Source of the DNA: a virus
DNA length: 24,030 nucleotides
Strand: one strand, 5' to 3'
Virus record (IMG/VR): IMGVR_UViG_3300034062_003835
Coordinates: 1-24,030 of that record
The notes beneath the pieces are model-generated. The model was not told where the DNA came from. It made no database searches and worked only from the letters and a program-made list of their open reading frames with translations. The position numbers and the translations under genes are program-made. Positions 15,983 to 24,030 of the stretch are shown here, in pieces; the stretch's first letter is position 1; every line of letters starts with the position of its first letter.

Positions 15983-16056
15983 GGCCATACCCAAAGGTAC
16001 AAAAAAAGCGGGGCTGTTACACCCCGCCAAAACGCATAAAACAAAACAAAAACCAT
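15979..16056 (-). CDS. Possible 25-aa hydrophobic leader peptide
   Basis: A tiny frame starting MVFVLFYAFWRG and ending LYLWVWP spans the terminator-like hairpin at 16001-16027. Its TGA overlaps the ATG of the tail completion gene as ATGA. It could be a leader peptide, a very small membrane peptide, or chance. Translation through the hairpin would prevent its folding, so an attenuation-type arrangement is conceivable. Confidence 0.25.
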   Translation of the reverse strand: MVFVLFYAFWRGVTAPLFLYLWVWP

Positions 16057-19825: not shown

Positions 19826-20047
19826 TTAGTTGGAAACAAAGTTAAGGTTTTTTACTTTGCGTACCAAGGTTTCTTTAAAATTCCATTCCAGCATGAAGCC
19901 AGCGTGAGCCAGCACCCCCGTTTCCTGCGCGTGCCTCATGGCCGCGTCTATCTCTTCGCTGCTTACCTTGTACCAATGGTCAAACTCCATCGCCTCGATG
20001 TTTCTTAAACCCTTTTGGTAGGCTTCAACGCTTATTTCTTCATCCAT
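19826..20047 (-). CDS. Small hypothetical protein
   Basis: A 73-aa acidic protein beginning MDEEISVEAYQKGLRNIEAM and containing VSSEEIDAAMRHAQETGVLA. The ATG at 20047 overlaps the last 16 bases of the nuclease gene; a longer frame to 20116 would overlap it by 85 bases and is rejected. Family unknown. It is coupled to the nuclease, so a partner or accessory role is possible but not shown. Confidence 0.6.
   Translation of the reverse strand: MDEEISVEAYQKGLRNIEAMEFDHWYKVSSEEIDAAMRHAQETGVLAHAGFMLEWNFKETLVRKVKNLNFVSN
19837..19867 (-). promoter_or_regulatory. Weak internal promoter-like sequence
   Basis: Minus-strand TTGG (19867-19864), 19 bases, then TAACTTTG (19844-19837) approximates the Bacteroidetes promoter. 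It overlaps the end of the 73-aa gene and precedes the SSB-tail gene at 19802 with a leader of about 28 bases. One mismatch in the -33 box and its location in coding sequence leave it uncertain. Confidence 0.25.
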
Positions 20048-20376
20048 GGGGATATGACTTTTTGAAAATCCTCTAACGAATATACGACATGGATTTGAGT
20101 TCCCCTCGCACCCCAAAAGCGATTTAAGTTTTTTTGACTTTGGGATAGCCTCCCGCCGGGTGCTTTCACCTCAATCGGCACAAAGTAATTAAAGCCGATA
20201 TGCACGATTAAATCGGGTGCGCCGGGCATCAACCCTAACGCCGCCATTCTTCCGGCCTCCTGTGCGCTCCTTTTGCCCTCATTTGGGATGTGGATGAGGT
20301 CAGCTGCTCTCGCTGGGTAGGTAGTCTGCCACCACTTGACTATTTCCGCTTGGATGTGGTCTTCTTGCCTTTTCAT
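20032..20376 (-). CDS. VRR-NUC domain nuclease
   Basis: A 114-aa single-domain nuclease. The family signature is clear: HIPNEGKRS (29-37), then GLMPGAPDLIV (48-58) and IEVKAPGGRLSQSQ (68-81). The PD...ExK catalytic set is D55, E69 and K71, with Q81 as the usual following glutamine. Stand-alone viral VRR-NUC proteins of this length are common and are thought to cut branched or flapped DNA in replication, recombination or packaging. It is the first gene after the TGTAACAG array, so it probably begins the second transcription unit. No TAnnTTTG box was found at the usual distance from its ATG. Confidence 0.9.
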   Translation of the reverse strand: MKRQEDHIQAEIVKWWQTTYPARAADLIHIPNEGKRSAQEAGRMAALGLMPGAPDLIVHIGFNYFVPIEVKAPGGRLSQSQKNLNRFWGARGTQIHVVYSLEDFQKVISPWMKK

Positions 20377-20453
20377 AAACTATGCGTTATTTTCGGTTTT
20401 TGTTCGGCCACCAAATAAAACAAATTTTTCCATTCCACCAAATTGTAACAGAT

Positions 20454-20480
20454 TGTAACAGATAAAAAAAATCTGTTACA
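20454..20480. repeat. Inverted motif pair 1
   Basis: Perfect 10-bp arms TGTAACAGAT (20454-20463) and ATCTGTTACA (20471-20480) around seven A residues. A further direct copy of the 10-mer abuts it on the left (20444-20453). Confidence 0.85.
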
Positions 20481-20563
20481 GCCTACAACCCCCGTCTTTA
20501 CTATATAATATAATACTCTGTAACAGGTAACAGAAAAAAGTATTAAAGGTTATATGAAAAGGG

Positions 20564-20582
20564 TTACAACTATATGTTGTAA
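20564..20582. repeat. Perfect 7-bp inverted repeat
   Basis: TTACAAC (20564-20570) and GTTGTAA (20576-20582) flank TATAT. The arms share the core TTACA/TGTAA with the 8-mer array but in the reverse arrangement. It lies in the AT-rich stretch and could be a hairpin or a degenerate binding site. Confidence 0.6.
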
Positions 20583-20720
20583 GATATATACTCTAATAGA
20601 CTTTTAATAATAAATGGTAAAATTTGGTACTTTCAATACCCCTATTTTTTATATAGTTTTTGAAATGTCGATATCTGTTACAGAAACGCGGGAAACGCCC
20701 GTGGGAGTAGGGCTGTAGCG

Positions 20721-20747
20721 TGTAACAGTGAAAAAATATCTGTTACA
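20721..20747. repeat. Inverted motif pair 2
   Basis: TGTAACAG (20721-20728) and CTGTTACA (20740-20747) flank an 11-base A/T-rich spacer. The centre lies about 64 bases from that of pair 3, close to six helical turns. Confidence 0.85.
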
Positions 20748-20784
20748 AAACCCTTGTAACGCATTGAGGCTGCGGGGCTTGGAG

Positions 20785-20812
20785 TGTAACAGTAAAAAAA
20801 CACACTGTTACA
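20785..20812. repeat. Inverted motif pair 3
   Basis: Perfect 9-bp arms TGTAACAGT (20785-20793) and ACTGTTACA (20804-20812) flank a 10-base spacer beginning with seven A residues. The layout is the same as in pairs 1 and 2. Confidence 0.85.
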
Positions 20813-20816
20813 AACT

Positions 20817-20908
20817 TTTATCGGAAAAAAGCGGGGTAAAATATGGCGGAAAATGGGCGTAAAAGGCTGTGGTGCAATGGTTTGCGATTGGCAATTTATC
20901 GGAAAAAA
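20817..20908 (+). repeat. 14-bp direct repeat
   Basis: TTTATCGGAAAAAA occurs at 20817-20830 and again at 20895-20908, each followed by a GCGG within two bases. The second copy lies inside the doubtful plus-strand frame, which argues that the area is control sequence and not coding. Confidence 0.6.
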
Positions 20909-21113
20909 CGCGGTGGTGTGTAAATTTAAAATTGACAAAAACAGGCTGTTGAAAAAAAATGAAAAAAAGTGCAAAAATCGTTTGAAACTTTCACCGAAAA
21001 TACAGGGGTTGGATATGCACCCCCTAAAAGTTGTAACCATTACCCATAAAACGAGTAAGCAAAATAGGGCTATTATAAGCCGGGTTTATGGGTTGCTGGC
21101 AAAAGATAAATAA
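20853..21113 (+). CDS. Doubtful 86-aa plus-strand ORF
   Basis: A frame beginning MGVKGCGAMVCDWQF, with a K-rich middle from homopolymer A tracts and a more protein-like end (VVTITHKTSKQNRAIISRVY). It faces against all nearby genes and has no promoter-like box or clear ribosome site. It includes one copy of the 14-bp direct repeat. The K-rich part could simply reflect A-rich noncoding DNA. I list it because nothing else fills the space; a small DNA-binding regulator acting on the nearby array is imaginable but unsupported. Confidence 0.2.
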   Translation: MGVKGCGAMVCDWQFIGKNAVVCKFKIDKNRLLKKNEKKCKNRLKLSPKIQGLDMHPLKVVTITHKTSKQNRAIISRVYGLLAKDK

Positions 21114-21162
21114 AACTTATATGTGGCGAGGCGTGCCAAAGGGTAAACTATATTATAGGCCA

Positions 21163-21186
21163 CAAAAAAGCCCCATTGAAGGGGCT
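21163..21186 (-). terminator. Rho-independent terminator after the methyltransferase gene
   Basis: On the minus strand AGCCCC (21186-21181), a 6-base loop and GGGGCT (21174-21169) form a perfect GC-rich stem followed by T residues. It lies 22 bases past the stop at 21208 and ends the replication/modification unit. There is no T-tract on the plus strand. Confidence 0.85.
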
Positions 21187-21207
21187 GGAAAGTGGGGGTG
21201 GGGTGGG

Positions 21208-21795
21208 TTACTTTTTACGGCTTCCCTTCCACTTGGCAATCGCTAAACCGCGATTATCGGTGGTGTTAATGATGACCACGTCATACCACTCCCGAAGCCA
21301 TGCGCAAAACGCTGCTACGTCTGCGATATGGATAGCGTCATGGAAGATATAAGTGGTGTTGGGGTTTCCGCAGATGCGCTCGTAGCGTTGAAACTCATCC
21401 CGCTGCCGCTTAAACTCGTGGACGCTGTCAAAGAAGATAATATCTGCCTTGGGTAGCTTTGGCGCGAGTGCGATGCTATCGCCGACGTACACGGTTACAT
21501 TGGGCGGCATTGGTGGCAATTCCGGAGCGATGTCCACGACATGGATGTCCAAGCCTGATGCAGCTAATTGAGTGGTTGTAGCCCCCCGAAAACATCCCAC
21601 TTCGATAATGGTTTTGGCCTTGGTGTTGGCGGCGATAGCGAGGATAAGCTGTGCTATTTCGGGTTCGCTTGACCAAATCGCAGGGCGGTTGGTGGCGGGG
21701 TCTGCGGGGCGGTAGCCTTGCGGCGCAGCTGGATCGATTTTAACCCGCGTTGCGATGTCTGCGTCTTGTTCTATGGCTGGTTTTTTCTTGGCCAT
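21208..21795 (-). CDS. Class I SAM-dependent methyltransferase-like protein (CmcI / Methyltransf_24 type)
   Basis: A 195-aa protein with a Rossmann methyltransferase core. Motif I is IIEVGCFRGATT (63-74), the end of strand 2 is HVVD (85-88), and GDSIAL (105-110) follows. The segment FFDSVHEFKRQRDEF (121-135) gives the D..H.......D metal-site pattern of the CmcI/cephalosporin hydroxylase-like branch, and HDA (152-154) follows. That branch often methylates sugars or small molecules (for example rhamnosyl O-methyltransferases), so an O-methyltransferase acting on glycans is a reasonable inference beside the sugar-related gene at 21806. The first 25 residues are a charged extension. The start lies 10 bases after the previous stop. 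Confidence 0.75.
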   Translation of the reverse strand: MAKKKPAIEQDADIATRVKIDPAAPQGYRPADPATNRPAIWSSEPEIAQLILAIAANTKAKTIIEVGCFRGATTTQLAASGLDIHVVDIAPELPPMPPNVTVYVGDSIALAPKLPKADIIFFDSVHEFKRQRDEFQRYERICGNPNTTYIFHDAIHIADVAAFCAWLREWYDVVIINTTDNRGLAIAKWKGSRKK

Positions 21796-21805
21796 TATAT
21801 TTGAA

Positions 21806-22375
21806 TTATTGGTTACAAAGTGTAGAGGTGTTGTCCCTAAACCATTGCACGTTTATCCCGTGCTTTTGGAAAAGTTCCACCAACAGGGCGGTGTGCTTTC
21901 GCACGTACTCATGGTTCACCATGTCTGGGTACATTTCAGAGCCGCTTGGAGTGTTGTCCACTCCGATAAGGATTAGCTTGGTAGCCCCATGCGAAACGGC
22001 GTAGAACATGGCTAAATGCAGTATTGACCAAAAGTTCGGGTATAGTGCCTTGGTGTCGCGGTTTACAGCGGAAATAACGAAGTTTTCAATCCACTCCAAT
22101 GGCATTTCTTTGCGCTCTATTGTTTGGCGGTATTGGCCATTTTTAATCCAATGTGGTGTGCGGTGGTTTGTTCCTTCGAAGGAAGGGTAGCAGGCAATGG
22201 TGCGTTCGGGAAAAAACCCGGTCAGCTTGAACATATCGATAACTACGTCATGGCCCGACATGGCGAAATCGGTGTGAAATGCGAGGGCAGCTTGGTTTAG
22301 GCCGATTGTAGTGCCGTCTACAAGGTGCAGGTGTTGGTATGCGGAAGGGTGTTTCCCGATAATGGTTGTGGTCAT
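21806..22375 (-). CDS. DUF115 / GT42-like Rossmann protein (sugar-related)
   Basis: A 189-aa protein. The pattern LHLAMFYAVSHGATKLILIGVDNT (about 119-142) is the core seen in DUF115 and GT42 sialyltransferase-like proteins (A...GA..I.LIGVD), preceded by a short strand with GHDVVIDMF (41-49). It is short for an active sialyltransferase (normally about 250-300 aa), so it may be a reduced relative of unknown substrate. The start overlaps the DnaN stop (ATGA). With the methyltransferase after it, it suggests a small modification cassette attached to the replication genes. Confidence 0.5.
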   Translation of the reverse strand: MTTTIIGKHPSAYQHLHLVDGTTIGLNQAALAFHTDFAMSGHDVVIDMFKLTGFFPERTIACYPSFEGTNHRTPHWIKNGQYRQTIERKEMPLEWIENFVISAVNRDTKALYPNFWSILHLAMFYAVSHGATKLILIGVDNTPSGSEMYPDMVNHEYVRKHTALLVELFQKHGINVQWFRDNTSTLCNQ

Positions 22376-23370
22376 GCTAAAATTATAGGCATTAATAAAA
22401 ACTCTGCGTTTTTGGATTTGATAATAAGCGGGCGGTTTGGTTCGCCGTGGGCTATGGTTATGCTTGGGGTTTCGATGGTGCGCAGGATGTCGGCCAAAAA
22501 GCGGCCATTCACGCCGATTTGTTTTGGTCCGGAAGGTAGGGTAAAGCCCTCGCTTGCCTCTTTGTTTAAGTCTATGTCAAACGCGGTTAGGCATTGTTTC
22601 TCGAAGTCAAAAATAATGAGGTTGGTAGCGTTGTTGGCGTATGGCAGTAGCCTGCGAATAGCAGTCGAAAGTTCGGCGGCGTCCGCTTGGAACTCGGCAT
22701 GGTGGGAAGGGAAAACGGCTTGGTATTTCGGGTAGTTACCGGAAATCAACCGCGCGTAAATAGTAGCGTTAAATGCTTCTATTTTGATGTGGTTGTCTGC
22801 TTGGGTAACGGCAAAGTTTGACCGGATAAAGTCTTGGGTTAAGCGAATGGGCTTAACGGGTATAATGATGCCTGACAAGGGGTGGTCTTGGCTAATTTTG
22901 GCGAGGCGGGTGGCGTCTGTGGCTGCGATTTCGTTTTCGCCGAAGTATATCCCGGACATGACAGGGCGTAGGTCGTCTTTACCCACCATGTTTGAGCAGT
23001 ATTGCTTGGCCGATGCGAAAACATCCGAGGAAACCTGCATAGGTGTGCCGGAAATGGAAGGTGCAGCCGGAAATTCGTCTGCAGGATAGCAAGGCATTTT
23101 GTATTTGCCTTTGCCGGTTTTTAGCAGGATGTACCCTTCATGCTGGGTGATGGTTGGGTTTTCGATTTGTTTTAAAGCTGCGATTAGCGCGGATGCGTTT
23201 ACTTGGCAGTTGAGCTCGCTGGGTAGCGGCGCGACAATGTGCGTTTGTAAATCTGTTGCCTCGACTTGGTTATTACGGAAGCAAAGGTTTTGCGTTGCAG
23301 GGATTGTTGTTGGGCTGGTGGCCTTTGCTACGTTTGATAGTAGGCTGGTAATGTCGTTTGTGGTGTTCAT
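22372..23370 (-). CDS. dnaN: DNA polymerase III beta subunit (sliding clamp), phage-encoded
   Basis: A 332-aa protein with the triplicated clamp layout, slightly shorter than the usual 365-375 aa. Recognisable blocks are NCQVNASALIAALKQI (end of domain 1), KYKMPCYPADEFPAAP, then LRPVMSGIYFGENEIAATDATRLAK in domain 2, and the ending FLLMPIILA, like the MPM.L end of host clamps. It would encircle DNA and hold the polymerase at the fork; phages usually borrow the host clamp, so its presence is notable. It follows the primase gene by 13 bases. Confidence 0.92.
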   Translation of the reverse strand: MNTTNDITSLLSNVAKATSPTTIPATQNLCFRNNQVEATDLQTHIVAPLPSELNCQVNASALIAALKQIENPTITQHEGYILLKTGKGKYKMPCYPADEFPAAPSISGTPMQVSSDVFASAKQYCSNMVGKDDLRPVMSGIYFGENEIAATDATRLAKISQDHPLSGIIIPVKPIRLTQDFIRSNFAVTQADNHIKIEAFNATIYARLISGNYPKYQAVFPSHHAEFQADAAELSTAIRRLLPYANNATNLIIFDFEKQCLTAFDIDLNKEASEGFTLPSGPKQIGVNGRFLADILRTIETPSITIAHGEPNRPLIIKSKNAEFLLMPIILA

Positions 23371-23383
23371 GGTGTAGTGGCGT

Positions 23384-24030
23384 TTAATTCGGTAAAGTTA
23401 AAAAATCTTCGTTAGTTAAAGTGTTATAGGGTGTTAAACCGGGCAAGGCCACTTCGCGGCCAATTAAACCAAGGTCAGCGGAATTAACCAAAGACACCTT
23501 CCACATTCGCTTCACCATTGTTCCGGTTCGCTTTAAGTTTTGCTCAAAGCCTAAAGACGTCAGCACGCGCCCAATTTGCTGGGGGTTGACTTGATCAACT
23601 CGGTACTTCATTTTCATGAGCGCGAGTATTTCCGATGAGGATAAATACTCCACTTTTTGGCCGATTTGGGGAAGGTCTACGATTAAGGAAACAAGGTCTT
23701 GGGCGGCGGATGTTACCGCATAGGCAGCGGACACCATGTTAAGAAACTTCATTTCCTCACGTGTAAGGTGGTGTGGTTTGCGAAGTTCCTCGGTGTCTGC
23801 CTTGGTGTATTCAGTTACAAGCTGCGACCAAAGGGCTTCCCTGTCTATTTTTTCCATGCCTTTTTGGTCGATTTCGGTAATGGTCATGGGTACAAAACGG
23901 CGGTTTCCTGTGGGGTCGTCAATGATTTGCGTTTCGTTTGACGTGCCAATCCAAGAAGCGATGCGCTGGAGCTTCTCGGTGGTGGCAGCGTAGGGTAAGC
24001 GGATTGTAACGTAATCCAAGGAAAGCACCT
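23384..24030 (-). CDS. VirE-type primase/helicase, C-terminal part (cut by window edge)
   Basis: The visible 215 or so residues are the end of a larger protein whose start lies beyond 24030. The segment LQRIASWIGTSN, followed by DDPTGNRRFVP, is the signature of virulence-associated E / D5-like helicases (R.ASF.GT.N....L.D.TGNRRFW), part of the AAA+ ATPase. After it come a helical region and a winged-helix-like C-terminus (SSSEILALMKMKYRVDQVNP ... IGRVLTSLGF). Walker motifs and any primase domain would lie outside the window. It starts the replication group that includes dnaN. Confidence 0.85.
   Translation of the reverse strand, partial: VLSLDYVTIRLPYAATTEKLQRIASWIGTSNETQIIDDPTGNRRFVPMTITEIDQKGMEKIDREALWSQLVTEYTKADTEELRKPHHLTREEMKFLNMVSAAYAVTSAAQDLVSLIVDLPQIGQKVEYLSSSEILALMKMKYRVDQVNPQQIGRVLTSLGFEQNLKRTGTMVKRMWKVSLVNSADLGLIGREVALPGLTPYNTLTNEDFLTLPN

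Follow-up and report, generated by a model that had tools for sequence, protein, structure and literature searches.

An array of short boxes at 20444–20812 of the viral record IMGVR_UViG_3300034062_003835 from IMG/VR is, with a probability of about 85%, a phage replication origin at which the phage's VapE-type protein reads the boxes, melts an AT-rich core, and starts two forks. The whole record of 24030 bases was analyzed and is called the window here. Four features favor an origin over a regulator, the two roles offered for the array by an earlier note made from the DNA letters alone: (i) two box clusters around an AT-rich core, (ii) a GC-skew minimum inside the array, (iii) arrays of similar layout at the stop codon of homologous vapE genes, and (iv) the annotated origin of phage Sfi21, which is laid out alike. 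These sequence features lend the note's initiator–origin proposal support.

Layout, conservation, and GC skew of the box array

The window holds ten exact copies of TGTAACAG where 0.68 are expected by chance, a count reached in none of 100 shuffles, and nine of the ten fall within the array. Spacers of 11, 11, and 12 nt separate the boxes of three inverted pairs (20454/20473, 20721/20740, and 20785/20805, respectively), and the array repeats follow a pitch of 64–65 nt. The nine 8-mers and the three pairs had been reported in the earlier note, which judged the arrangement too regular for chance, and both hold on recounting, as does the AT-richness at the array. With the near-copy GGTAACAG at 20526 (+) included, which overlaps the box at 20519, the array is bipartite, two box clusters enclosing a 141-bp core that is 78% AT compared to 53% for the window; on exact boxes only, four and five copies stand on either side of a 148-nt gap of 77% AT.

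Close relatives comprise six contigs with large terminases that are 98–100% identical. All six carry the array in the same gap, with nine boxes in unchanged order and nearly unchanged spacing, plus one outlying copy each. Two of them are near-complete (G003, ~40.0 kb, and G002, 37.7 kb) and contain no further TGTAACAG copy; the possibility raised by the earlier note that the motif is equally frequent elsewhere in the genome is not borne out. Among four distinct strains, 1 of 79 positions varies in the boxes versus 54 of 364 between them (p = 2e-4). The sole varying box position belongs to the double site (20519/20526), which in strain G005 reads TGTAACAT-GTAACAG, an exact copy shifted by 7 nt with the double site kept.

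Cumulative GC skew, a check proposed at the outset, has its minimum in the window at 20518. When G003 and G002 are treated as circles, the detrended minimum again lies inside the array, 109 bp from its center in each, with an amplitude matched by 0 of 2000 block shuffles, and the third-position skew of genes differs across the two sides of the array (p = 0.007 and 0.001 for G003 and G002, respectively). Such a pattern classically marks a bidirectional origin. The main genes on either side of the array in the window are on the - strand. With the minimum inside the array in both near-complete relatives, despite genes that nearly all point in a single direction, the array is very probably an origin of replication.

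VapE and the arrays behind homologous vapE genes

The candidate initiator is encoded at the end of the record, where the open reading frame 23384–24028 corresponds to the C-terminal part of a VapE-type protein (PF05272) of 761 aa, a length taken from a full-length homologue. A profile of 37 VapE sequences strongly matches a single PDB entry, 7pds (“Similar to D. nodosus vapE”, E = 1.4e-17), and the predicted structure of the 761-aa homologue (mean predicted local distance difference test score, pLDDT, of 79) has its best fold match in the same entry, PriRep1 with double-stranded DNA (E = 3.6e-15). PriRep1 is an initiator of staphylococcal pathogenicity islands (SaPIs). The homologue model has an apparent winged helix at its C-terminal end (residues ~650–728), the predicted equivalent of which in the window is ~23486–23722. 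Judged by the PF05272 assignment, the profile and fold matches to 7pds, and this predicted winged helix, the protein is a PriRep/VapE helicase homologue with a predicted C-terminal DNA-binding domain, and it is likely the initiator of this phage. SaPI Rep proteins recognize iterons just 3′ of their own gene via the C-terminal domain (PMC7581432).

Arrays also accompany distant VapE homologues. Eighty VapE loci were fetched, five from the window's family and the rest 27–32% identical to that family; the 68 with enough sequence were counted. An array, defined as at least five copies of one 7-mer in the first 450 nt past the vapE stop, is present in 54 of the 68 loci (19 of 25 when non-redundant) versus 17 of 4558 control windows. 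In most loci outside the window's family, the top-repeated 7-mer of the whole 4–14 kb locus forms a non-coding array starting at most ~120 nt from the end of the vapE match. The iterons flank a gap, usually of ~100–160 nt, with an AT content above the locus level in nearly all cases, and their sequence varies by VapE lineage (TGTAGTA, TGACAAC, TGGTAAG, GTAAAGG, TGACTAC, and others). Named phages with such arrays are Sfi21 (AGTAAC, the annotated origin), Enterococcus phiFL4A (TGGATAC), and Flavobacterium mumin (GGTAACC) and lotta (TGGAACA); in Staphylococcus PI-Sepi-HH2, seven copies of ATAAGAC come after a D5-type gene. The gaps inspected in Cellulophaga phi46:1 and Nonlabens P12024L contain no clear array. 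A mixed VapE alignment proved too divergent as a scan query.

The closely related VapE pairs L281/L282, L288/L308, and L285/L289 have nearly identical C-terminal wings (GKPVKC or GKSVKC) and differing iterons (TGTAGTA/TTACTAC or TGGTAAG). This hints that very few VapE residues may switch specificity between iterons; a formal covariation test on the sequences did not localize them.

In the proposed mechanism, several copies of the VapE-type AAA+ primase-helicase would bind the TGTAACAG boxes via their C-terminal winged-helix domains, probably as one helicase ring per box cluster. VapE would then melt the AT-rich core that the clusters enclose, and two replication forks would be launched from the melted DNA.

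Gene neighborhood and competing explanations

The features in and around the array are collected below. The array-bearing gap spans 831 nt (20377–21207), and a terminated replication unit does lie beside it, as the earlier note had stated; its placement of the array between replication and packaging units stands on the replication side, whereas the next gene on the other side encodes a VRR-NUC nuclease, with the terminase genes beginning ~0.9 kb further.

Coordinates of the array and neighboring features in the window
Feature	Position	Strand	Basis
VRR-NUC nuclease gene, first after origin	20032..20376	-	PF08774 2.6e-6
TGTAACAG boxes of array	20444+, 20454+, 20473-, 20519+, 20675-, 20721+, 20740-, 20785+, 20805-		
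Left iteron cluster	20444..20533	no strand	boxes 20444+, 20454+, 20473-, 20519+ plus overlapping near-copy 20526+
AT-rich core, candidate unwinding element	20534..20674	no strand	78% AT
Right iteron cluster	20675..20812	no strand	boxes 20675-, 20721+, 20740-, 20785+, 20805-
Terminator-like hairpin closing replication unit	21169..21186	-	
Methyltransferase-like gene, last of replication unit	21208..21795	-	weak Methyltransf_24 match, below cut-off
Gene of 189 aa, between vapE and origin	21806..22375	-	no family match; conserved in relatives
Beta-type DNA polymerase sliding clamp, separating vapE from origin	22372..23370	-	phrog_947 1.7e-55; DNA_pol3_beta domains
VapE-type primase-helicase (candidate initiator), C-terminal 214 residues, cut by record end	23384..24028	-	PF05272 5e-15

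The beta-type sliding clamp gene belongs to the phage family itself, and a scan of viral contigs for close relatives of the clamp found none outside the window's own family. A second exact repeat, TTTATCGGAAAAAA, lies immediately to the right of the array at 20817–20830 and 20895–20908, 78 nt apart, and is conserved among relatives. The tenth TGTAACAG copy (16014-), the only one outside the gap, forms the loop of a terminator-like hairpin at 16008–16033 (- strand; GCGGGG-TGTAACAG-CCCCGC-TTTTTTT) ahead of a 216-aa gene. This hairpin is identical in seven of seven genomes, even where the adjoining gene is merely 62% alike, and the motif in its loop may reflect chance or a true link to the box-binding protein. 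An Rfam search of the window returned no match, and the literature matches listed for TGTAACAG and CTGTTACA as motifs contain only unrelated work.

The box itself recurs in unrelated phages. The compound pattern TGTAACAG-N(1-5)-TGTAACAG-N(9-17)-CTGTTACA, with 24 fixed bases, has 34 matches among viral contigs and 10 among genome contigs, where a rough estimate with uniform base composition gives fewer than one expected in each. Arrays of 5–13 boxes, mostly flanking an AT-rich gap, occur in unrelated phages of ~29–61% GC. The three-site genome matches L201, L202, L203, L204, L207, L208, and L209 may be chance or short inverted repeats; L051 and L083, with sites mostly 75–78 nt apart, probably represent a different kind of repeat and were left out. 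A protein of G071, clustered with VapE by single linkage only, was rejected as a T7-type primase-helicase.

Five observations weigh against an origin read by VapE: (i) the array of the window's family lies 2.55 kb from vapE, not at its stop codon, with the clamp gene and two further genes in between; (ii) TGTAACAG arrays in unrelated phages accompany VapE, D5, DUF5906, or PrimPol/DUF3987 helicases; (iii) the Gram-positive-type prophages G009, G014, G018, and G069 (L182–L190 and L252–L254) have two TGTAACAG arrays separated by ~20–24 kb, the first near the integrase end and the second before the HNH/terminase genes, neither adjoining the D5-type helicase gene; (iv) covariation of iteron identity with the VapE C-terminal domain is not specific (partial r of 0.14 vs 0.20 for the rest of the protein); and (v) the skew switches at the array in 9 of 19 other VapE loci and is not general in VapE phages. 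The skew argument is therefore specific to the window's family, and the plain skew minimum is not at the array in most other array-bearing phages examined. Since arrays accompany other helicases and some phages have two of them at a distance from the helicase gene, VapE may not be alone in reading TGTAACAG. An origin at which another protein, a phage factor or a host protein, reads the boxes and loads the helicase is unlikely; its probability overlaps that of the VapE-read origin, because it is an alternative within the origin reading. The recurrence of one box and layout with VapE, D5, DUF5906, or DUF3987/PrimPol helicases speaks for such a reader, as do the very similar arrays found with D5 in G009 and with VapE in G075. 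Against it, the box changes by lineage among VapE relatives, which would not be expected if a conserved host protein bound there, the gap contains no DnaA box (TTWTNCACA) as a DnaA-dependent origin would, and the VapE-type helicase is the family common to most array-bearing groups, among which no shared small DNA-binding family was found.

The dyad pairs, two helical turns apart, would also fit a dimeric regulator, and the array stands 68 nt upstream of the VRR-NUC start. In this case, a phage repressor or activator on the inverted pairs would control a promoter for the VRR-NUC, terminase, and late unit, which would necessarily start in the gap on the - strand. The gap does contain promoter-like matches, including one that overlaps boxes (20479–20452, - strand), yet six were found where 3.1 are expected by chance, and the Bacteroidota consensus TAnnTTTG is not found there. 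An operator would leave the skew minimum, the paired clusters flanking an AT-rich core, and the homologous arrays at the vapE stop unexplained, which makes it quite improbable as the main role; regulation may be a second function of the array. A packaging start (pac or cos), with the small terminase subunit binding the boxes and cutting beginning at the array, is more improbable still. The array is ~1 kb upstream of the terminase genes and other phages also have arrays near such genes, but in phages whose large terminase is 63% identical, the upstream region differs and lacks the array. The array thus travels with the replication module rather than the terminase, and the arrays of homologues sit after vapE. 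In addition, G003, in which the two contig ends share 687 bp at 93% identity, and G002 close at different points, both outside the array.

Significance and comparison with known origins

An origin read by VapE would supply the replication start for a phage family so far seen only in metagenomes, and it comes with a rule for finding origins in VapE-type phages, namely the top-repeated 7-mer after vapE. Cloned origins of this kind, such as that of Sfi21, can block phage growth (PMC6356513), and the rule could therefore point to decoy elements. Previously described in phage satellites and a single streptococcal phage, the layout is now seen in many unrelated phages; its presence in many ordinary phages bears on the exchange of replication modules between phages and satellites. 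Lineage-specific iterons paired with homologous initiators lend themselves naturally to testing how AAA+ helicases recognize their origins. A tentative extension, held at less than even odds, is that the two-sided iteron origin, so far described as exclusive to phage-inducible chromosomal islands (PICIs), is the general type for tailed phages with VapE/D5/PrimPol-type helicases, with iterons switching by lineage and TGTAACAG as one iteron “type” across host phyla with differing helicases. If true, phages and satellites would fall into replication compatibility groups defined by this shared type.

Lambda-type origins place the O iterons next to AT-rich DNA, inside gene O and on one side of the AT-rich stretch, where they are bound by a non-helicase initiator; the array described here, in contrast, is non-coding and two-sided. 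PICI origins, located 3′ of the initiator gene, consist of two iteron sets with an AT-rich region between them (PMC6092414), and the initiator of the PICI/SaPI Rep-ori systems is a self-loading AAA+ helicase (PMC6092414, PMC7581432). This phage resembles them in its two box clusters around an AT-rich core and in having PriRep1 (7pds) as the best fold match of its family's VapE. It differs in that the boxes are partly inverted pairs, the initiator gene is 2.55 kb away with the sliding clamp in between, and the element carrying the array is a tailed phage that has structural genes of its own, not a satellite. The array was also considered as part of a PICI satellite, and this was rejected on the basis of the large terminase and run of late genes in the window and of relatives that are ~40-kb phage genomes. 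An origin immediately 3′ of the initiator gene, as in PICIs and SaPIs, is absent from the window and present in most homologous VapE loci.

The origin of Streptococcus phage Sfi21 is a 302-bp non-coding region that confers phage-encoded resistance (PMC6356513). It is annotated as an origin in NC_000872 and has non-coding iterons on either side of an AT-rich stretch after a putative primase gene. The window shares non-coding iterons around AT-rich DNA downstream of a primase/helicase gene, though not directly downstream, whereas the Sfi21 array directly follows its primase gene and uses AGTAAC instead of TGTAACAG. Although it lies farther from the initiator gene than is usual, the array, as an origin, belongs with the PICI/Sfi21 layout.
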